64,000 nucleotides of DNA from Lactiplantibacillus plajomi (GTDB taxonomy: Bacteria; Bacillota; Bacilli; Lactobacillales; Lactobacillaceae), in NCBI RefSeq assembly GCF_005405405.1, contig NZ_BJDZ01000002.1, positions 62,001-126,000 of the forward strand, written 5' to 3'. Position 1 is the stretch's first letter, and every line of letters starts with the position of its first letter. Shown here piece by piece: positions 3,722 through 55,045 of the stretch. The notes under the pieces are model-generated. The model ran no database searches and was not told where the DNA came from. It saw only the letters and a program-made list of their open reading frames with translations. The translations under genes and the position numbers were made by a program.

Positions 3722-4091
3722 AGCAACAAAAAAGTCCCCTTGAGAAAAATCTCAAGAGGACGTCTACGCGCGGTGCCACCTCACTTCGCAGCAACTTCAC
3801 AGTTACTGCCTCAGGGAGTTTAGTGATAAAAAAAATCGTCCTTAGGCCTACAGCCTAAGAGGACGATTTCATCGCGGTACCACCTCATGTTCATCAATGG
3901 CTCACACCATTGAACTCAACGAGTTTATCACTAAACTCCGCCGCTAACGAGGCCAACCGAAACGGCTTACTCACTTTCAGCCGTTCAACTCGCAGATGTG
4001 GTTCACTAACGCTAAGGATCGTCTTTCCACCACCGACGACTCGCTGGACAGCTTAACGTTAACTACTCTTCTGTTCCTTGTTTTTTAATGT
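3722..4091 (-). promoter_or_regulatory. T-box leader (His specifier inferred) with a second partial T-box
   Basis: Read on the minus strand. A full T-box unit runs from about 4091: Stem I with GAAC-CAC-ATCTGCGAG (candidate specifier CAC at 3998-4000), T-box core 3874-3885 (AGGTGGTACCGC), and a terminator hairpin at 3830-3869. It is followed by a second T-box core at 3769-3781 (AGGTGGCACCGCG) and a second terminator at 3727-3761, with no room for a Stem I between them. The specifier was placed by aligning to the valS (GTA) and metN (ATG) leaders of this window, which share the GAA-N-codon context. Both terminators must be antiterminated to reach the transporter genes. Confidence 0.85.
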
Positions 4092-10496: not shown

Positions 10497-13163
10497 CTAA
10501 GCTTGTGCTTGAATATCAGCTAACCGTTGTTTCGTTGCGGCCAGCTTCGATTCGTTATCCGCTAACTTTTCCTTTTCGCTGTTAACGACCGCTTCCGGTG
10601 CGTTGGCAACGAAGCGTTCGTTACCTAGCTTCTTGGTAGCACGCGCGACTTCGCTTTCGAACTTCGCCCGTTCCTTTTCCAACTTCTTAACTTCGTCGTT
10701 CAAATCAACTAATTCGGCTAACGGAATGTAAACTTCCGCGTCGCTGATCACCTGGGTCATCGATAACTTCGGTGCGGTCACGTCCGCGCCAATCGACAAG
10801 GTCTTCGGGTGGGCGAACCGTTGAATGTAATCTTCGTTGGTCTTAAAGACCGTTTGCAACCGCTGGCTGTCGGTCTTGATCAGTAAGTCGACCGCTGACG
10901 ACATCTTAGCGTTGGCTTCCGCCCGAATACTCCGAACGGCAGTGATCAATTCGATCAGTGACGCCATGTCGCTTTCAGCGGCGGCATCGTCAAATTCTGG
11001 GTGGTCGACTGGGTAGTCGGCAACGACCAGCGATTTTCCAACGTGTGGCATTGATAACCAAATCTTTTCGGTTACGAACGGCATGATTGGGTGCAATAAG
11101 CGTAAGGTTTGATCAAGAACGTACGCCAACACGTTTTGCGTGTTCTGCTTAGCGTGAGCGTCGTCGCCCGTCAAGATTTCCTTACTCATTTCAATGTACC
11201 AGTCACAGAAGTCGTTCCAGATAAAGTTATACAGGGCCCGACCAGCTTCACCGAAGTCAAACTTATCAAAGGTGGTAGTGACCTGCTTAACCGTTGCGTT
11301 CAAGCGGCTCAAAATCCACTTGTCAGCGAGCGTCCATTCCGACTTGGCAGGTAAGCTTGGTTGCGTCATTTCACCTAAGTTCATGATAACGTAGCGACTA
11401 GCGTTCCAAATCTTATTAATAAAGTTCCAGGCCGCGTCCATCTTCGTGTAACTGAAACGGACGTCTTGGCCGGCAGTTGAGCCGTTCGATAAGAACCACC
11501 GCAACGCGTCGGCCCCGTATTTTTGAATAACGTCCATCGGGTCAATCCCGTTGCCTAGGGACTTACTCATCTTGCGGCCCTGTTCGTCACGGATCAACCC
11601 GTGTAGTAGGACGTGCTTAAACGGCCGTTTACCGGTAAATTCAAGGCTTTGGAACATCATCCGTGATACCCAGAAGAAGATGATGTCGTAACCGGTGACC
11701 AACGTGTCGGTTGGGAAGTAGCGCTTAAAGTCGGCGGCGTCTTCGTCCGGCCAACCCATCGTTGAAAATGGCCACAGGGCGCTTGAGAACCAGGTATCCA
11801 AAACGTCCGGATCCTGTTCCCAATTTTCAATGTCCTTCGGTGGTTCAACGTCAACGTAAGTTTCGCCGGTCTTCTTGTTATACCAGGCTGGGATCTGATG
11901 GCCCCACCAGAGTTGCCGCGAAATGACCCAGTCGTGGACGTTTTCCATCCACTGGTTGAAGGTTTCTTCAAACCGTTCTGGGACGAAGTCAACCTTGCCG
12001 TCAGTTTGTTGATTCTTCAAAGCTTGTTCGGCGAGTGGCTTCATCTTGACGAACCACTGCGTTGACAAGCGGGCTTCAACTTGAACCCCGGTCCGTTCCG
12101 AATGACCAACACTGTGGACGATTGGGTCAATCTTGATCATCAAGTCCTGATCCTGCAAGTCCTTGACCATCGCTTTACGAGCAGCGAACCGGTCTAAGCC
12201 TTCGTACTTACCCGCGCGGGCGTTCATCGTCGCGTCTTCGTTCATCGTGTTGATGCGTTCCAAGTCGTGGCGGTTCCCAACCTTAAAGTCGTTCGGGTCG
12301 TGGGCCGGCGTAATCTTAACCATCCCGGTCCCGAATTCAGGGTCAACGTAGGCGTCGGCAATGATCGGAATCTCACGGTTAGCCAGCGGTAAAATCACCT
12401 TTTGGCCGACTAATTCCTTGTAACGGTCGTCGCTTGGATTAACGGCAACCGCGGTGTCACCCATCATAGTTTCCGGCCGGGTCGTTGCGATTTCAATGTA
12501 GTGCTGACCGTTAAACGTGAAGTTCTTATCGGCGAACGGGTACTTAACGTGGTAGAAGGCCCCCTGGTCATCCTTATGAATCACTTCGATATCGGATAAC
12601 GCGGTCCGCGCCTGTGGATCCCAGTTGATGATGTATTCGCCACGGTAAATCAAGCCCTTCTTGTAAAGGGTGACGAACACCTTCTTAACGGCGTCGGATA
12701 ATCCTTTATCCATCGTGAACCGTTCGCGTGAGTAGTCGAGTGACAAGCCCAACTTTGCCCACTGTTGCTTAATGATCGACGCGTATTCGTCCTTCCAGTC
12801 CCAAACTTGTTGGATGAACTTTTCGCGGCCCAAATCGTAGCGACTGATGCCCTGTTCGCGTAGCTTGGCTTCAACTTTCGCCTGAGTAGCGATCCCGGCG
12901 TGGTCCATCCCGGGTAACCAGAGCGTATCAAAGCCCTGCATCCGTTTTTGACGAATGATAATATCTTGCAAGGTCGTGTCCCACGCGTGACCGAGGTGTA
13001 ATTTCCCGGTAACGTTCGGTGGCGGTAACACGATTGAATACGGCTTAGCTTGCTTATCGCCCGAAGGCTTAAATAAATCTTGGTCTAACCAGGTTTGATA
13101 ACGACCCTTTTCAACGGCGGTCGGGTCAAACTTAGTTGGCATATCAGTGGTTGGTTCTGACAT
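10497..13163 (-). CDS. valS: valyl-tRNA synthetase
   Basis: Class I synthetase charging tRNA-Val, 888 residues, full length. The HIGH motif is [15 protein letters not shown], the KMSKS motif is [11 protein letters not shown], and the CP1 editing domain contains [17 protein letters not shown]-terminal coiled-coil arm ([19 protein letters not shown]) is present. ATG 13163 follows AAAGGACG; an upstream extension in frame runs into the T-box terminator. It is controlled by the T-box leader directly upstream. Confidence 0.97.
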
Positions 13164-13185
13164 ATGGACACGTCCTTTCGGTGGC

Positions 13186-13446
13186 GATACAAAAAAGTCC
13201 ACTCGTCCTAAGAGTTAGGACGAATGGACTTCGCGGTACCACCTAATTTTAAAGCTAGTACCGAAGTACCGCTTTACAACTTAAACATCATTGTTAACGA
13301 ACGGTGTATCCCGTCCGGTCACCCCTACTGTCGTTCAAGGTGACAGCTCGCAAGCTACCTTCGCTTCAAGTGCGCCGAAAACTTTCCAGTCCCGTTTTCT
13401 TCCTGTGGACGCGGCTTGAAGCTACTCTCTTGCTCATTGCTGAATA
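13186..13446 (-). promoter_or_regulatory. T-box leader of valS (Val, GTA specifier)
   Basis: Minus strand: Stem I contains GAAG-GTA-GCTTGCGAG (specifier GTA at 13356-13358), T-box core AGGTGGTACCGCG at about 13232-13244, and terminator 13191-13231 (AGTCCATTCGTCCTAA / TTAGGACGAGTGGACT plus T6). Confidence 0.95.
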
Positions 13447-14101: not shown

Positions 14102-15349
14102 TTAAAATCGCACCCGGGCGTGGTGCCGGGCCAGCGCCAGTGCCAGTTTAGTCGGCTGGTGCTGGCAATCCCGCAACCAGCGGGCCGCTGGCGTTTGTTC
14201 CGGGTGAGCCAGGCGACTGCGAACGACCCAACTGGCGGTCTGAAACGCCGGCACCCCCAACTGGACGACCAGCTGATCAAATTGTGCTAACAACCAGCGG
14301 CCCTCCGCCAACTGTGCCGTTTCGGCTGTGGGTCGTTCAAGGGCAACTTGGCGGTTCAGTTGCTCACCGTAGTGGATGGCCGCCGCTACGTTTTGCGGGG
14401 CCGGTAAACTTAACATCAATAAAATAAAACCGTGCAAAAAATCGAGTTGCACCTGGTCGACCCCCAGTGGATCAAACGGATTGAGGTCAAAGTTTCGTAG
14501 TTCGAGGTAGTCGATGCCGGTAGCGGCTAAATCCGTGACCGCGTGACCACCGCGCAAGCTTACCTGGCCGTAAAAGGCCTTTTCCGCGCCCAGTTGCCCG
14601 GTCGCAACCAGGTGCTTGAGGTCGGTAACGTAAGCCGCCACCGAGCAATACGAAACCTGAAGCCGGCTTAAATTCGTGTAACCAAAGGGACTGTTCCGAA
14701 TACTGCGCACTGGCTCGGCTGGTCCGGTGTGCGTTAACAAGCGCGGCCAACGCGTCGGACTGGCCCCGAAAGCGTAGGTCAGTAACCACCGGTAACGCAA
14801 ATAATTTTGGGCAACGTGCAAATAAAGTTGGTTCTGGAACTCGCGCCGGTTCATCGGGCCCGCCTGCTGAGCAAACAATTGGTCTAATAACGCCGCACTA
14901 AAACCAACGTTGACGTGCAAGCCACTGATCATTTGCCGGCGACGGCCGCCGCGCCTAGCCAGTTGCTGACGGTACGCGAACGCTTGCGGACTCAACTTGG
15001 CAATCACAATGGCTTCACTCGCCCGCGGTAACGTGGGCGGCATACTCAGCGGCCAAATTAGTTCCGTCGGTCTTAACTGGCTACTGACGCCGTGTTGAAT
15101 CCGTGCCAACGCGGCTAAGGCAGCGTTCGTACTCGTCATTGTGGGGGTGACTAGTTCTAACTGGGTCTCAGCAAAGTCGCGGGTAAGTCCGCGAACCGGT
15201 CGGGGCACGGCCGTTGCTAAGTCGCGCCGCGCCAGTTGCCCCGTGGACGTCACCCGTTGCCCTTCACGCTCGATTCCAATTGTTAACCCAGTCACCGGTG
15301 TGCGGTGTGCCGCCCTCAATAAAGCTGCCTGATAATCCGTACTCGTCAC
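14102..15349 (-). CDS. gshA: stand-alone glutamate-cysteine ligase
   Basis: Should join the gamma-carboxyl of glutamate to cysteine. The 415-residue single-domain protein keeps the family active-site features: GIEREGQRV (E27, E29), DFAETQLELVTP (D58, E61, E65), SGLHVNVGF, WLLTYAFGASP, SIRNSPFGYTNLS and YLELRNFDLNPF. It has no ATP-grasp domain, so alone it would stop at gamma-glutamylcysteine. The start is probably GTG 15349, although the GGGGG ahead of it is very close. A paralogous GshF-type fusion at 23835-26099 has lost many of the same residues. No operon partner is seen. Confidence 0.88.
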   Translation of the reverse strand: MTSTDYQAALLRAAHRTPVTGLTIGIEREGQRVTSTGQLARRDLATAVPRPVRGLTRDFAETQLELVTPTMTSTNAALAALARIQHGVSSQLRPTELIWPLSMPPTLPRASEAIVIAKLSPQAFAYRQQLARRGGRRRQMISGLHVNVGFSAALLDQLFAQQAGPMNRREFQNQLYLHVAQNYLRYRWLLTYAFGASPTRWPRLLTHTGPAEPVRSIRNSPFGYTNLSRLQVSYCSVAAYVTDLKHLVATGQLGAEKAFYGQVSLRGGHAVTDLAATGIDYLELRNFDLNPFDPLGVDQVQLDFLHGFILLMLSLPAPQNVAAAIHYGEQLNRQVALERPTAETAQLAEGRWLLAQFDQLVVQLGVPAFQTASWVVRSRLAHPEQTPAARWLRDCQHQPTKLALALARHHARVRF

Positions 15350-21321: not shown

Positions 21322-21942
21322 TTATTTTGGCTGACGGACGGCCGCCATTAATGGCTGGTAAACTGGTACTAACTCGTTTAAGGTTGCCGTAAGGACGGTC
21401 GCCCACTCCGCGGGATGGTCGAACTGCGGGTCATCAACGGCCCAACTACGTCCCACTACCAGTTCACTGTGCTTATAGCGTTGAAACTTCGCCAGTGCCG
21501 CCTGGACGTTGTTCGCGGTTGCGGCCCGCGTTAGCGGTTGACCGTGGTTGGTCGCTAGTTGTAACTCCGGTGCAACCGGTGTGAAAATTGTTGTTAAGTC
21601 GGCTGGCGTGAGCGCCGCTTGAACCTTGGGCTTACACTCGTCTAACACGTCGAGGTACAAAAATAAGCGGTCAGGCCACAACCCGAGTTCGAAGTGCGGC
21701 CAACCCTTATACCCACGCTGATTATGGCTAAACGCGACCCAGGTATCGACCGGTGGGTTCTTAAAGCGCCGCAAGTGCTTAGCCACGTGGGCGTAAAACG
21801 GCTGGCCAGTCACCGCCGTTAATTCGGTAACCAACTGCGGTGCCAGCGCCTCGAACTTCGGGTCGATCACCGTTTTAATCAAGTGCATCCGGCCCGCCAA
21901 CGTTGGGTCGTTAAAAATATCAAAGTCGCTCCGGGTAAACAT
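21322..21942 (-). CDS. DUF1054 (UPF0637) protein, YktB-like
   Basis: Cytoplasmic protein of unknown function, 206 residues, of the YktB/UPF0637 family. N-terminus FTRSDFDIFNDPTLAGRM, then HVAKHLRRFKNPPVDTWVAF and GWPHFELGLWPDRLFLYLDVLDE, all typical of the family. No signal peptide or membrane helix. It converges on rpsD with a shared terminator and is probably monocistronic. Confidence 0.88.
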   Translation of the reverse strand: MFTRSDFDIFNDPTLAGRMHLIKTVIDPKFEALAPQLVTELTAVTGQPFYAHVAKHLRRFKNPPVDTWVAFSHNQRGYKGWPHFELGLWPDRLFLYLDVLDECKPKVQAALTPADLTTIFTPVAPELQLATNHGQPLTRAATANNVQAALAKFQRYKHSELVVGRSWAVDDPQFDHPAEWATVLTATLNELVPVYQPLMAAVRQPK

Positions 21943-22079: not shown

Positions 22080-22535
22080 ATGGCTACTAATGAACAAGAA
22101 CCGGTCGACCGTATTCAGACCGCCATGCACGGGACGCCAAAGCTGCATCCCGACGAACAGCGTAAGTACCTCGGGACTTTTCGTGAACGCGTCGAAGTTG
22201 CGGTCACCGTCTACCAGCTCAAGCGGGCGCACTACGTTGATGAACTTAAACGGGCGTTTGCTGAGCACCCCGAAGATAAACTCTACATCAACGGTAACCT
22301 GGACCAGGATTTCATCGGGCCCTACATTAAAGCAGCTAGTCAAGCGGGGATTCAGTTCACCATCAAGACCGATGACATTTACCGCACCGATGATGAGAAC
22401 TACGCCCTGGTCCTAACCGCCGATCACGCCGTTAACCGCGACGTCATCGACATTCAAAAACGGTATCAGACCCAAGCTGCGCCGAAACAGGACGCGCCGC
22501 ACGGCCTACTTAATAAACTAAAACACTTATTTTAA
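22080..22535 (+). CDS. DUF1694 (YueI-like) protein
   Basis: 151-residue cytoplasmic protein of the YueI family, function unknown. Recognised from MHGTPKLHPDEQRKYLGTF and the central ERVEVAVTVYQLK, NGNLDQDFIGPYIKAA and FTIKTDDIY. ATG 22080 follows GAAAGGATG. The C-terminus is basic and low in conservation. It stands alone, followed by the second copy of the intergenic repeat. Confidence 0.85.
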   Translation: MATNEQEPVDRIQTAMHGTPKLHPDEQRKYLGTFRERVEVAVTVYQLKRAHYVDELKRAFAEHPEDKLYINGNLDQDFIGPYIKAASQAGIQFTIKTDDIYRTDDENYALVLTADHAVNRDVIDIQKRYQTQAAPKQDAPHGLLNKLKHLF

Positions 22536-23834: not shown

Positions 23835-26099
23835 TTAGTTATCAGAATCCTCGGGGTCCGCAAACAGCGCCGTCAATAAATCGTCGGCGACCGGCTGGGC
23901 ATCGCCAAAGGACGGAAAGGCGTGCGGATAAAGTGCCGGGGTGGCGTGAACACCTAAGAAGACCGCCATTTCGGGATGGTCAGCCGTCAGCTCCGCGTAA
24001 AGGTTCGGCATCACAACGTCAAATCCCGCAACCCGTAGACCGAGCGTCCCCGCCAACTTTTCAACCGCCTGAACGTACGACGGGTGCACTTCGGTCGTGA
24101 CGTCCAACAAGTCCGCTCCGTTGGTAAAGGTCGCGTCTTCGCGCAGCAACACCTGACTGCCGCGCCCGACGACCGTCTCCAAGTCCATCTGGTAGGCCGC
24201 CAACCGGTAACGCTCGATTGTCCCGAGCTTAATGGTCGTCTGTGGGTGGCTTCCCGCGTCACCCCGTAACGGGCGGCCGTTTTTGCGGTCTAGCAAAGTT
24301 TGAATCGGCGTACGGCCATCACCCACCACGTTGGCAGGAATCCGCTCAGCTACCGCGCGGACCTTGCCGTCGATGACTAAGAACCGGTAACTAGCCCCAA
24401 CGATGACTTCTTCGGCCATCACCGCGCGGGTCTGTTCGAAGAGCTGGTGAACGACCCGTTCGAATAACTCGCGTTTCGGCATGATTCGAAACACCGCGAC
24501 AATGTCCGGTTCATCGGCCGCTTTCAACACGATGCCACCTTCCTGCGCGAAACGGTCGTAATCATCGATCAGCTGGTTAGCCGTATGGTAAGTCTGCGAT
24601 GCTGGAACTTGCACGCCGTGTTCGGCCAGCAATTGTTTGGCCGCTGCCTTATGCGGCAAGGCACTGGTTAGCGCCTGAGGGTTCAAATCGGTGCCACTAC
24701 CTGCAACTAACAAGCGGGTCGTCTGCCCAGCCGTCAGCCGTAAAATATTCGCCCGTGTATCAACCACGTTCACCCGAATGCCACGGGCCAGCGCCCGTTC
24801 CACCACTAGTTGACTGGATAAGTCCAGCGCACTGAATCCGGGAAGCTGGAACGGCGTTGCCGTGGCATCCGCCTGAAAACCAGCGGCCTGTTGATTAGCC
24901 CAGGCCAAGGGATCCGGCGCCATGGCCACCGTTGCACTCAGCGTCCGTTTCGGGTCTGCGACCCGTTTCTTCAAGGTATCGATCAGCGTGGCGTTGCGTT
25001 CCGGCAAACCGTTTGCGGTCACAAAGTGGCGTAACGCGCCCAGCACTTGTTCAGCCGGCACCGCTTGGGCACTAGCCGTCGTCGGGTTTTCACTGGTGAC
25101 CTGTTCCAGCAATTGACGCGCCTGTTGGTTCACTTGGGGCACCATTTTGGCCGGTAACGCCGGCATCATGGCAAAGTAACTCGCCAACAAGCGGATAAAT
25201 TCAACCGCCTTTTGATCAACCCCGACCGCACTGTTGGGATCCAAGTCGAGGCCTTGGAATTCCAAGTAGTACACACCGTTAGTCGCGAGGTCGGCTAACG
25301 CCCCGTTGCCCCGAAAGCGGACCGGGCCGGCAAAGTCATCGGTGGCCATTAACTGGCCGGCGGTGACTGCCTGCTCTAAGCTGGTCACGTAACTGGCTAA
25401 GGTGCTGTAATCCGCACTGACCTGTCCGTACCGGCCGCTCGTCCCGTGAACGCTGCTCCGTTGCCGCTTGGAACGCCGGTCGGTAAAGTTCAAAGCCGGC
25501 GTCGCCCCAAAGAGGTATTGGATCAACCAGTTCATCCGTACCAGTCCCTGGGCAACTTTCACGTATAGCGCGTTGCGAAAGGCCACGTAACTGGCATACT
25601 GCCGGTGAAAAGTCTCCGTAAATAGGCGTAATAACAACTGTTCGTTAAAACTCAGGTTGACGTGCACCCCGCTGGTCATGAGTTGCCGCACGTTATACTT
25701 GCGGGCCTGCGCGCGCCGGTATTTCAAGTCGTCAGCGTCACTGGCAGTCAGCGCAATTTCACTTAACTTTGCGGGTAACACCGGGTTACTCGATAACGGC
25801 CACAGTAAGTCGCCTGCCGGTAACGCCCGCCGCGCCGTTGCGTTCAGCCCGGTTAAGTAGGCCATCAGCGCACTGACATCGCGCATCGCCGGGGTCGTTA
25901 GTTTCACTTGCGACTGCGCGAAACCGGCCCGTAATTGTCGGTTAGCGGAACGGGTCCAGGCTGCCGGAACCGCCTGCGTCGATAGTTGACCGTCCGAGGC
26001 GACCCGTTGCATCGTCACTTCCAACCCTAAATTTGAATGGCTGACGAGTGGTACCAAGTGGCTCGTCTTAATTGCTTTTCCAATTGCATCTAATTCCAT
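23835..26099 (-). CDS. GshF-like fusion (GCL + ATP-grasp) with substituted active sites
   Basis: 754 residues, the full GshF length: an N-terminal glutamate-cysteine ligase-like half (1 to about 400) and a C-terminal ATP-grasp half (about 470-750). Compared with the stand-alone ligase in this window, GIEREGQ is GLEVTMQ (E29 to T), DFAETQLEL is GFAQSQVKL (three acidic residues to G, Q, K), SIRNSPFGY is SVHGTSGRY and ELRNFDLNPF is EFQGLDLDPN. In the ATP-grasp half the E-L-N-x-N-P metal motif is replaced by LGVHATP, while ANVVGDGRTPI and EVHPSY remain. The frame is open throughout. It may be a pseudoenzyme or have a new substrate; glutathione synthesis should not be assumed. Confidence 0.85.
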   Translation of the reverse strand: MELDAIGKAIKTSHLVPLVSHSNLGLEVTMQRVASDGQLSTQAVPAAWTRSANRQLRAGFAQSQVKLTTPAMRDVSALMAYLTGLNATARRALPAGDLLWPLSSNPVLPAKLSEIALTASDADDLKYRRAQARKYNVRQLMTSGVHVNLSFNEQLLLRLFTETFHRQYASYVAFRNALYVKVAQGLVRMNWLIQYLFGATPALNFTDRRSKRQRSSVHGTSGRYGQVSADYSTLASYVTSLEQAVTAGQLMATDDFAGPVRFRGNGALADLATNGVYYLEFQGLDLDPNSAVGVDQKAVEFIRLLASYFAMMPALPAKMVPQVNQQARQLLEQVTSENPTTASAQAVPAEQVLGALRHFVTANGLPERNATLIDTLKKRVADPKRTLSATVAMAPDPLAWANQQAAGFQADATATPFQLPGFSALDLSSQLVVERALARGIRVNVVDTRANILRLTAGQTTRLLVAGSGTDLNPQALTSALPHKAAAKQLLAEHGVQVPASQTYHTANQLIDDYDRFAQEGGIVLKAADEPDIVAVFRIMPKRELFERVVHQLFEQTRAVMAEEVIVGASYRFLVIDGKVRAVAERIPANVVGDGRTPIQTLLDRKNGRPLRGDAGSHPQTTIKLGTIERYRLAAYQMDLETVVGRGSQVLLREDATFTNGADLLDVTTEVHPSYVQAVEKLAGTLGLRVAGFDVVMPNLYAELTADHPEMAVFLGVHATPALYPHAFPSFGDAQPVADDLLTALFADPEDSDN

Positions 26100-26172
26100 T
26101 TAGATCAATCCAATCGTTTATTTCTACTGACTTCGGTCCTGAACCAATCGTTCGGTGTCCAGTTACTCTAAA

Positions 26173-26181
26173 TGCTATAAT
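26173..26181 (+). promoter_or_regulatory. extended -10 promoter of rarA
   Basis: TGC-TATAAT, with TATAAT at 26176-26181, 36 bp before the rarA start; the -35 is poor. Confidence 0.55.
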
Positions 26182-26217
26182 AGTTTAGACCAATTTTGCA
26201 AGGGGGAGATACTCAGG

Positions 26218-27498
26218 ATGCAACAACCATTAGCTTACCGGATGCGCCCGAAGACGATTGAAGACGTGGTCGGCCAACAACAACTTGTCGGTCCCGGTAA
26301 AATCATTGCCCGGATGGTCAAGGCCAAGCGCCTGTCATCGATGATCTTATACGGCCCACCCGGCACTGGTAAAACCAGCATTGCGAGTGCCATTGCCGGT
26401 TCGACCAAGTACGCCTTCCGGATGTTAAACGCCGCGACTGATAGTAAAAAGCAGTTGCAGATCGTCGCCGAAGAAGCCAAGATGAGCGGGACCGTTATCC
26501 TACTCTTAGACGAAATTCACCGGTTGGATAAAACCAAACAAGATTTTTTACTGCCCCACTTAGAAAGTGGCCGCATCATTTTAATCGGGGCCACCACCGA
26601 AAATCCGTACATTAGCATTAATCCGGCCATCCGTAGCCGGACCCAGATTTTCCAAGTGTTCCCACTGACCGCTGCCGATATCGAACGGGCCGTCAAACGT
26701 GCACTGAAAGACTCAACTAACGGCTTGGGTCAGTACGCGGTCCAATTAGACGATGGCGCCCTGCACCACCTCTGCACCGCAACCGGAGGCGACCTGCGCA
26801 GTGCCCTGAACGGTTTAGAGCTAGCGGTACTCTCGTCAACGCCGGACGCGGCGGGGAAGGTTCACATCACCCAGCCCGTTATTGAGGAGTGCTTACAAAA
26901 AAAGGCGTTATCCGCCGACAAGGACGGTGACGCCCACTACGACGTCATCTCGGCCTTTCAAAAGTCGATTCGCGGTTCCGACGCTAACGCCGCCTTACAC
27001 TACTTAGCTCGGCTAGTTGAAGCCGGCGACCTCAAAAGCATCATGCGGCGCTTAATGGTGATTGCCTACGAAGACGTTGGCTTAGCTAACCCGGCCGCTT
27101 GCGCCCACACGGTGGCGGCGGTTCAGGCTGCTGACCAACTCGGCTTTCCGGAAGCCCGGATTCCGTTGGCCGACGCCGTCATCGAATTAGCGTTGTCCCC
27201 TAAGTCCAACTCGGGCATCAGCGCAGTGGACGCCGCCCTAGCCACCGTCCGGCAGGGCCACTTCGGCGATATCCCGGCCAACTTAAAGGATGCCCACTAC
27301 CAGGGAGCGGCTAAATTAGGCCACGGGGTCGGTTACGACTTCCCCCACGACCACCCTGGCGACTGGGTCGCCCAGCAGTACTTGCCCGATCCAATCAAGC
27401 ACGCGACCTATTACCAACCGAAAACGAACGGTCGCTACGAAAAAGCGCTGGCCGAACAATACGAGAAATTATTAAAGGCCAATGCCGGTAACCGCTAA
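26218..27498 (+). CDS. rarA: replication-associated recombination ATPase RarA (MgsA)
   Basis: AAA+ ATPase acting at stalled replication forks, 426 residues. PLAYRMRPKTIEDVVGQQQL, Walker A YGPPGTGKTS, Walker B LLLDEIHRLD, sensor ATTENPYISINPAIRSR, then the tetramerisation/DUF2075-like C-terminal part (SIRGSDANAALHYLARLVEAGD, AYEDVGLANP). ATG 26218 has GGGGGAG upstream. It is divergent from the gshF-like gene. Confidence 0.95.
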   Translation: MQQPLAYRMRPKTIEDVVGQQQLVGPGKIIARMVKAKRLSSMILYGPPGTGKTSIASAIAGSTKYAFRMLNAATDSKKQLQIVAEEAKMSGTVILLLDEIHRLDKTKQDFLLPHLESGRIILIGATTENPYISINPAIRSRTQIFQVFPLTAADIERAVKRALKDSTNGLGQYAVQLDDGALHHLCTATGGDLRSALNGLELAVLSSTPDAAGKVHITQPVIEECLQKKALSADKDGDAHYDVISAFQKSIRGSDANAALHYLARLVEAGDLKSIMRRLMVIAYEDVGLANPAACAHTVAAVQAADQLGFPEARIPLADAVIELALSPKSNSGISAVDAALATVRQGHFGDIPANLKDAHYQGAAKLGHGVGYDFPHDHPGDWVAQQYLPDPIKHATYYQPKTNGRYEKALAEQYEKLLKANAGNR

Positions 27499-54917: not shown

Positions 54918-55045
54918 GATGGCAAAAAAACGGACAGCCCACCACTCAAAGTGGCCGGGCTGTCCGAAAATACCGTCCCCGCTTACCAGCGGGACGTCCG
55001 TTCATCCTTTTCAGCCTCTCTGAGCTAAATTAAAGGAACTGTTCA
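54918..55045 (-). promoter_or_regulatory. PyrR-dependent attenuator upstream of pyrP
   Basis: Minus strand: PyrR binding loop CAGAGAGGCTGAAAAGGAT (55007-55025 region), then an antiterminator/intermediate hairpin GTCCCGCT / AGCGGGGAC, then the terminator GGACAGCCCGGCCACT / AGTGGTGGGCTGTCC with T7 (54924-54966). UMP-bound PyrR is expected to stop transcription here. Confidence 0.88.

Follow-up and report, generated by a model that had tools for sequence, protein, structure and literature searches.

Why would a bacterium keep a full-length gene for the two-domain glutathione synthase GshF when residues of both active sites have been replaced, and what might the product of such a gene do? This question is raised by a locus of Lactiplantibacillus plajomi (contig NZ_BJDZ01000002.1), which we studied in a window of 64,000 nucleotides, with positions counted from the first letter of that stretch. 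The window genome (2.76 Mb in 77 contigs) belongs to the genus group here called g1. A preliminary description of the window had reported an intact frame of 754 codons with the architecture of GshF, and had suggested selection for another role, not simple decay.

RESULTS

Frame, domains and family assignment

The gene and its two halves are placed as follows:

23835..26099, minus strand: GshF-derived two-domain gene, ATG at 26099, stop at 23835-23837, 754 codons plus stop
24864..26099, minus strand: N-terminal half, residues 1-412, glutamate-cysteine ligase fold, best PF04262 stretch at residues 10-209
23838..24863, minus strand: C-terminal half, residues 413-754, ATP-grasp, phmmer matches to 3ln6, 3ln7 and 7wac, PF18419 at residues 425-462

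No internal stop interrupts the 754 codons that follow the ATG at 26099, and one chain carries both a glutamate-cysteine ligase (GCL) domain and an ATP-grasp domain, so the frame and the architecture are as first described; the border between the halves at residue 412 is our own choice. The protein matches the solved GshF structure 3ln7 with an E value of 6.9e-89 over residues 15-748, and 3ln6 was matched as well. These two structures, the GshF proteins of Pasteurella multocida and Streptococcus agalactiae, share the two-domain order of the window protein, which aligns with them nearly end to end. By name, its relatives are Lactiplantibacillus at 13 of 14 loci, the remaining one being an uncultured Lactobacillus MAG. 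The two NCBIfam models for such proteins disagree on it: PRK02471 (NF002688), whose name designates a working bifunctional glutathione synthase, is passed with 662 bits against a cut-off of 425, and TIGR01435 is missed, the score of 339 bits being roughly half of the 656 that it requires.

Substitutions in both active sites are shared across the genus

The altered and retained positions that concern us most are these:

26013..26015, minus strand: residue 29, E to T, in 21/21 genus rows
25902..25925, minus strand: residues 59-66 with D59G, E62Q and E66K, K66 in 20/21 genus rows
24498..24524, minus strand: retained K526 together with what was the ATP-grasp P-loop, now shorter and with its glycines gone
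24018..24020, minus strand: D694, retained counterpart of the TeCphA1 Mg ligand Asp431
23940..23954, minus strand: residues 716-720, G-V-H-A-T in place of E-x-N-x-N

In E. coli GshA, E27, E29, D60, E67, H150 and R330 serve in the active site; the roles that we assign to ligase-half residues rest on this general background and on alignment to that enzyme. The preliminary description had the exchange of E29 for T, the replacement of D, E and E by G59, Q62 and K66, and the conversion of the C-terminal E-x-N-x-N-P to G716-V-H718-A-T720-P, and all of these are present in the window sequence; among the ligase-half acidic residues E27, E29, D59 and E66, E27 alone is kept. It had likewise stated that a stand-alone paralogue (14102-15349) retains the acidic residues, as we find. 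The change of the Arg of its ELR motif to Gln is there in the window (Q282) but is no group feature, since the genus has R in 16 of 21 rows, Q in three and C in two. To these changes we add the P-loop of the ATP-grasp half, where two residues are missing and the glycines are gone. The protein thus differs from 3ln6 and 3ln7 in the replacement of active-site residues in both halves and the loss of the P-loop, and the features by which a GshF would be recognized, the acidic ligase residues on the one side and the P-loop with E-x-N-x-N-P on the other, are not those it carries.

The altered state is genus-wide and no local oddity. The gene was found in all 21 genus genomes searched, with open frames in every one (727 to 798 codons between stops, the shortest in modestisalitolerans at 727), and E29T, E716G, N718H and the shortened P-loop each occur in 21/21 rows of the genus alignment. 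E66K is seen in 20/21, L. modestisalitolerans retaining E, and D59 is gone in 18/21.

It had been proposed that the substituted positions be checked for variability among active GshF enzymes. They proved to be not variable but invariant: E29, D59, E62, E66, R282, E716, N718 and N720 are each unchanged in 18 motif-intact GshF rows, which were partly classed by these same motifs and are assumed active from their sequences. Seven of the 18, from other families, were chosen by TIGR01435 scores far over the cut-off and not by motifs, and they too have the named residues in 7/7. Of the 123 columns that are invariant in the 18 intact rows, 66 are kept in the window's genus, 22 have another residue in at least 95% of its rows, and the other 35 are variable there. 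The change at N720 need not count as a loss, because Ala occupies the counterpart position in TeCphA1, an active cyanophycin synthetase.

The gene is under purifying selection

Rates were computed by the Nei-Gojobori method with Jukes-Cantor correction. For the two-domain gene, dN/dS is 0.057, 0.047, 0.045, 0.049 and 0.034 in five close genus pairs. Three more distant pairs, whose dS exceeds 1.5, give 0.066, 0.058 and 0.027; two of the seven pairs in the distant set and the nangang-window pair are saturated and yield no value. Over the six pairs whose dS lies at 0.37-1.55, the ratio is 0.034-0.066. A ratio near 1 had been named as the mark of plain decay, and the genus pairs, at about 0.03-0.07, are far from it. 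The C-terminal half is the tighter one in all five close pairs (0.023-0.047 vs 0.044-0.072). Conserved neighbouring genes in the same pairs give values of the same order, for example 0.012-0.040 for EzrA and 0.077-0.122 for a 206-aa neighbour. The homologue in other genera has dN/dS of 0.069-0.128 (six usable pairs; one of nine was saturated), and a motif-intact, rarA-linked GshF of genus group g26 falls in the same range as the window's genus (0.048 and 0.058 in two pairs).

A paralogue in the window offers a second yardstick:

14102..15349, minus strand: stand-alone GshA-like paralogue with intact motif residues

This protein matches the ligase half with 34% identity over residues 10-389; it differs from the two-domain protein in its intact motifs, its higher dN/dS and its absence from 10 of the 21 genus genomes. 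In the three species pairs that have both genes, the two-domain gene shows 0.045-0.057 and GshA 0.126, 0.156 and 0.153, so the altered protein is under tighter constraint than its motif-intact paralogue.

The gene has a fixed place beside rarA

Three neighbours mark the locus:

26155..27498, plus strand: rarA-like AAA ATPase, divergently transcribed neighbour
22080..22535, plus strand: 151-aa neighbour, present at many rarA loci whether or not they have the gene, no NCBIfam match
21322..21942, minus strand: 206-aa neighbour, present at several rarA loci whether or not they have the gene, no NCBIfam match

We take the first of these to be rarA; its nearest NCBIfam models are AAA ATPase and RarA, with both scores below the cut-offs. 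The other two products are presumably YueI-like (22080..22535) and DUF1054-like (21322..21942). Since many of the neighbours persist at loci without the gene, if not every one everywhere, we rejected neighbour association as a clue to function.

Among 62 family rows, which were picked from matches and are no census, 57 (from nine genera) are divergent from RarA, and the other five show no RarA within their stretches of 5.3-9 kb. Across 101 genomes of the family (40 genera) there were 24 two-domain matches, 20 of them at rarA coordinates and four elsewhere. In the order's other families, 30 GshF loci were examined, and none had RarA within about 1.5 kb. Tyr701 is common to all 57 rarA-linked rows and present in none of 12 other rows, and a branch with an SH-aLRT of 100 sets the same 57 apart from the 12. 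Six of the rarA-linked rows are motif-intact (five from g26, one from g12) and 51 are degenerate. At 10 rarA loci without the gene, a tblastn search of 10-12.5 kb stretches with 69 GshF-like queries, which could overlook strongly decayed remains, detected remnants at none; its lone match (E 4.5e-4) falls inside a ddl-like gene. In the sampled rarA loci, the gene is therefore either whole or absent.

Losses in the two halves may have been stepwise

A coordinated loss in two domains, as first proposed, is not shown by the wider family. Five of the seven rows of genus group g34 keep E27, E29, D59, E66, H146, R282 and the P-loop, and are without E716, N718 and N720; all five carry G or S in place of E716, T in place of N718, and Q or R in place of E62. 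Because these rows retain ligase residues and have lost the ATP-grasp ones, the losses in the two halves may have been stepwise, and the g34 pattern fits a history in which the ATP-grasp metal site went first, although convergent loss would fit as well. The 51 degenerate rows fall on one side of a branch with an SH-aLRT of 99. Since the tree was built quickly and joins long branches, and since g12 has two degenerate rows beside an intact one, we do not claim a single origin of degeneration. At this one locus the rows range from motif-intact (g26 and one g12 row) to strongly degenerate (g1, g23 and g31), with g34 half-degenerate in between, a series that could serve as a study system for the conversion of an enzyme.

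Two g12 homologues (L149 of G049 and L124 of G363) are 655 and 568 aa long, with a shortened ligase half. They are reminiscent of the gap of roughly 100 residues that PMC12967834 gives for the L. casei group, and our guess is that g12 is this group.

The ATP-grasp pocket read against cyanophycin synthetase

The pocket of the C-terminal half can be read against TeCphA1, for which the accessible part of PMC9427784 describes Lys261 and Lys220 as touching the alpha and beta phosphates, Arg309 and Arg323 as near the gamma phosphate, two Mg ions as bound by Asp431 and Glu450, and a critical P-loop (residues 263-269) with weaker His267 and Arg309 mutants. In the same enzyme, Asn394 contacts the substrate aspartate. 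The ATP-grasp (G) domain of this cyanophycin synthetase 1 resembles the window protein in that its phosphate-binding Lys and Arg residues, together with one of its Mg ligands, have aligned counterparts: K526 stands for Lys261, K484 for Lys220, R572 for Arg309, R586 for Arg323 and D694 for Asp431. It differs in that the window protein has no match to a muramyl-ligase domain, and that the counterparts of Glu450 (G716), Asn394 (T657) and the P-loop are replaced. With the Lys, Arg and Asp counterparts kept and the latter three lost, the pocket may still accommodate a nucleotide while being unable to carry out phosphate transfer, though the kept residues could reflect structure instead of binding; in g13 most of them are gone and the frame is still open. 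Our AlphaFold2 models are too poor for a study of the pocket (mean pLDDT 51 for the full protein; pLDDT 55 and pTM 0.53 for the C-terminal half, 15 rows each), and a Foldseek search with the C-half model, which placed GshF and cyanophycin synthetases on top at an rmsd of 13-15 A, is uninformative.

DISCUSSION

We consider the gene to be probably an old, positionally conserved, GshF-derived pseudoenzyme, whose product would no longer make glutathione and would perhaps still bind a nucleotide. This reading draws on the genus-wide changes, the low dN/dS, the retention in 21/21 genomes, the linkage to rarA, the lack of remnants at empty loci and the kept phosphate contacts. Relative to active relatives the protein has lost catalytic residues (with roles taken from TeCphA1 and, for the ligase half, from general background), and the purifying selection and retention across species expected of a conserved pseudoenzyme are both found. 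That selection maintains another role, as the preliminary description suspected, is supported by the low rates and the open frames in all 21 genomes.

By sequence, the ligase half has been stripped of acidic active-site residues, and the ATP-grasp half of the counterpart of one of two Mg ligands, the phosphate-binding loop and the Asn for the acceptor amino acid; the other Mg ligand is retained, as are the pairs of Lys and Arg that surround the ATP phosphates. Such a protein should be unable to produce gamma-glutamylcysteine or glutathione and would be expected to keep a GshF-like fold; its ATP-grasp pocket might bind ATP or a similar ligand without phosphate transfer, and the bound and unbound forms could serve a partner, generally one other than the stand-alone GshA, as its switch or scaffold. 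If this is right, glutathione synthesis cannot be predicted from the PRK02471 name for the chromosomal copy, and a gene without an assigned function is more constrained than its motif-intact paralogue.

The strongest competitor starts from residue 718, where the re-fixed His is the most striking positive feature of the protein. H718 occurs in 37/37 rows of g1, g23, g31 and g11, even though g1 is only 23-31% identical to the other three, and residue 718 is T, E, C, A, S or N in the other degenerate genera. This His group keeps 18 of the 123 intact-invariant columns in at least 36 of its 37 rows (five in the N-terminal half, 13 in the C-terminal half), and by the same threshold only N655D and N718H among the 123 are re-fixed, both in the ATP-grasp half; K526, E563 and D694 are kept in 37/37 rows, and ligase-half residues are scattered in g23 and g31. 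One could imagine that the rarA-linked family is an ATP-grasp type with a rebuilt pocket, a new ligand or reaction and a dead ligase half as scaffold, but we consider this improbable, and we are just as doubtful of its structural side, in which the second Mg ligand and the P-loop were discarded and H718 took the place of Asn near D694. Slightly less likely still, in our judgement, is the specific proposal of a new ATP-dependent ligase that joins a different substrate pair with a rebuilt ATP-grasp half and H718 close to D694. In its favour are the re-fixing of those two columns despite so little identity and the conservation of K526, E563 and D694, but the window protein has lost the glycines of its P-loop as well as the equivalents of Glu450 (Mg ligand) and Asn394 (acceptor contact), and the predicted structures are of too poor a quality to help. 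We also considered a metal site that includes D655, an idea weakened by TeCphA1, in which, by our count on the alignment, the position is Thr and so need not be a ligand. Nor is the His group clearly one clade: the constrained tree has a borderline p-AU of 0.053, and His at 718 may for this reason have arisen more than once.

That the protein still makes glutathione or gamma-Glu-Cys despite its substitutions is what the PRK02471 name says, yet we think it very unlikely, since both halves lack residues that never vary in the 18 intact rows. The published activity of L. plantarum GshAB/GshF is mixed, with negative results in yeast and a cited gain in E. coli. In the accessible text of PMC12967834, none of the Lactobacillus gshAB genes expressed in yeast, that of L. 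plantarum included, raised GSH; the same text cites Pophaly 2017 for a loss of L. plantarum GshAB activity through amino-acid differences, and its introduction cites Xiong 2018 for an increase of GSH in E. coli by L. plantarum GshF. The portion of PMC3462692 at hand describes GSH synthesis in L. plantarum as unreported and its gshF as without gain in Pichia, and the available section of PMC12454333 takes the gshAB/gshF of L. plantarum to support glutathione synthesis in this species, a point on which another paper is more cautious. The L. plantarum GshAB reported as inactive in PMC12967834 is comparable with ours, as the EGD-AQ4 orthologue shares E29T, D59G, E66K, E716G, N718H and the P-loop loss. 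As a guess, the positive report may concern a plasmid-borne, motif-intact gshAB of the same name.

Motif-intact gshAB genes are carried by the L. plantarum plasmids NZ_CP090185.1 (L170, 801-3017) and NZ_CP035169.1 (L171, 3001-5217). These mobile copies belong to the same family and receive the same PRK02471 name as the window protein; they differ in being only 28-29% identical to the rarA-linked protein, in keeping all named motif residues and in showing no rarA among their annotated neighbours. Such plasmid-borne genes might reconcile the conflicting reports on L. plantarum. A GshF is also carried by an ICE of L. hokkaidonensis, according to the excerpt of PMC4377027. One genome (G038, L125) has a second, motif-intact GshF that shows no difference from a GshF of another genus (G042, L156) in the protein alignment, a sign of recent transfer.

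A role as regulatory subunit (prozyme) of the stand-alone GshA appears remote. The two genes lie about 8.5 kb apart in the window, which would suit such a pairing, but the two-domain gene is present in 21/21 genus genomes and GshA in 11, so that 10 keep the former without the latter, and an eleventh genome (G243, L084) has a whole two-domain gene but a GshA frame broken into two open pieces, one of 128 and one of 306 aa. On this distribution, in which the protein is not confined to genomes with a catalytic partner, we rejected the prozyme as a general role. Plain decay of a useless gene is hardly credible, for although active-site residues are lost and the genus shows variation at 35 of the 123 intact-invariant columns, the dN/dS of 0.03-0.07, the open frames in 21/21 genomes and the absence of fragments at 10/10 empty loci speak against it, the rates refuting it unless selection merely kept a useless protein harmless.

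We therefore return to a conserved pseudoenzyme as the preferred reading and ask what of it is new. The inactivity of L. plantarum GshAB is already in print and hence not new; the accessible text of PMC12967834 treats the protein as a lost enzyme, leaves selection, the rarA locus and the spread across genera undiscussed, and does not state which copy was cloned. For selective maintenance, the rarA locus and the His replacement, no report was found among the matches listed, which covered few subscription papers, and no paper was found on lp_2336. Among the matches listed for GshA metal-ligand mutants (the best 8 of 562), there was no direct study of the window protein, and none was found among reports on pseudogenes or transfer.

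Other features of the window

The window also holds RNA elements that score above the Rfam gathering threshold:

3856-4087, minus strand: T-box leader
13213-13446, minus strand: T-box leader
54927-55040, minus strand: PyrR binding site

The second T-box leader lies directly upstream of a gene at 10497-13202, which we take to be a valine-tRNA ligase, and the PyrR binding site is at the start of a 443-aa gene, presumably resembling a uracil permease.
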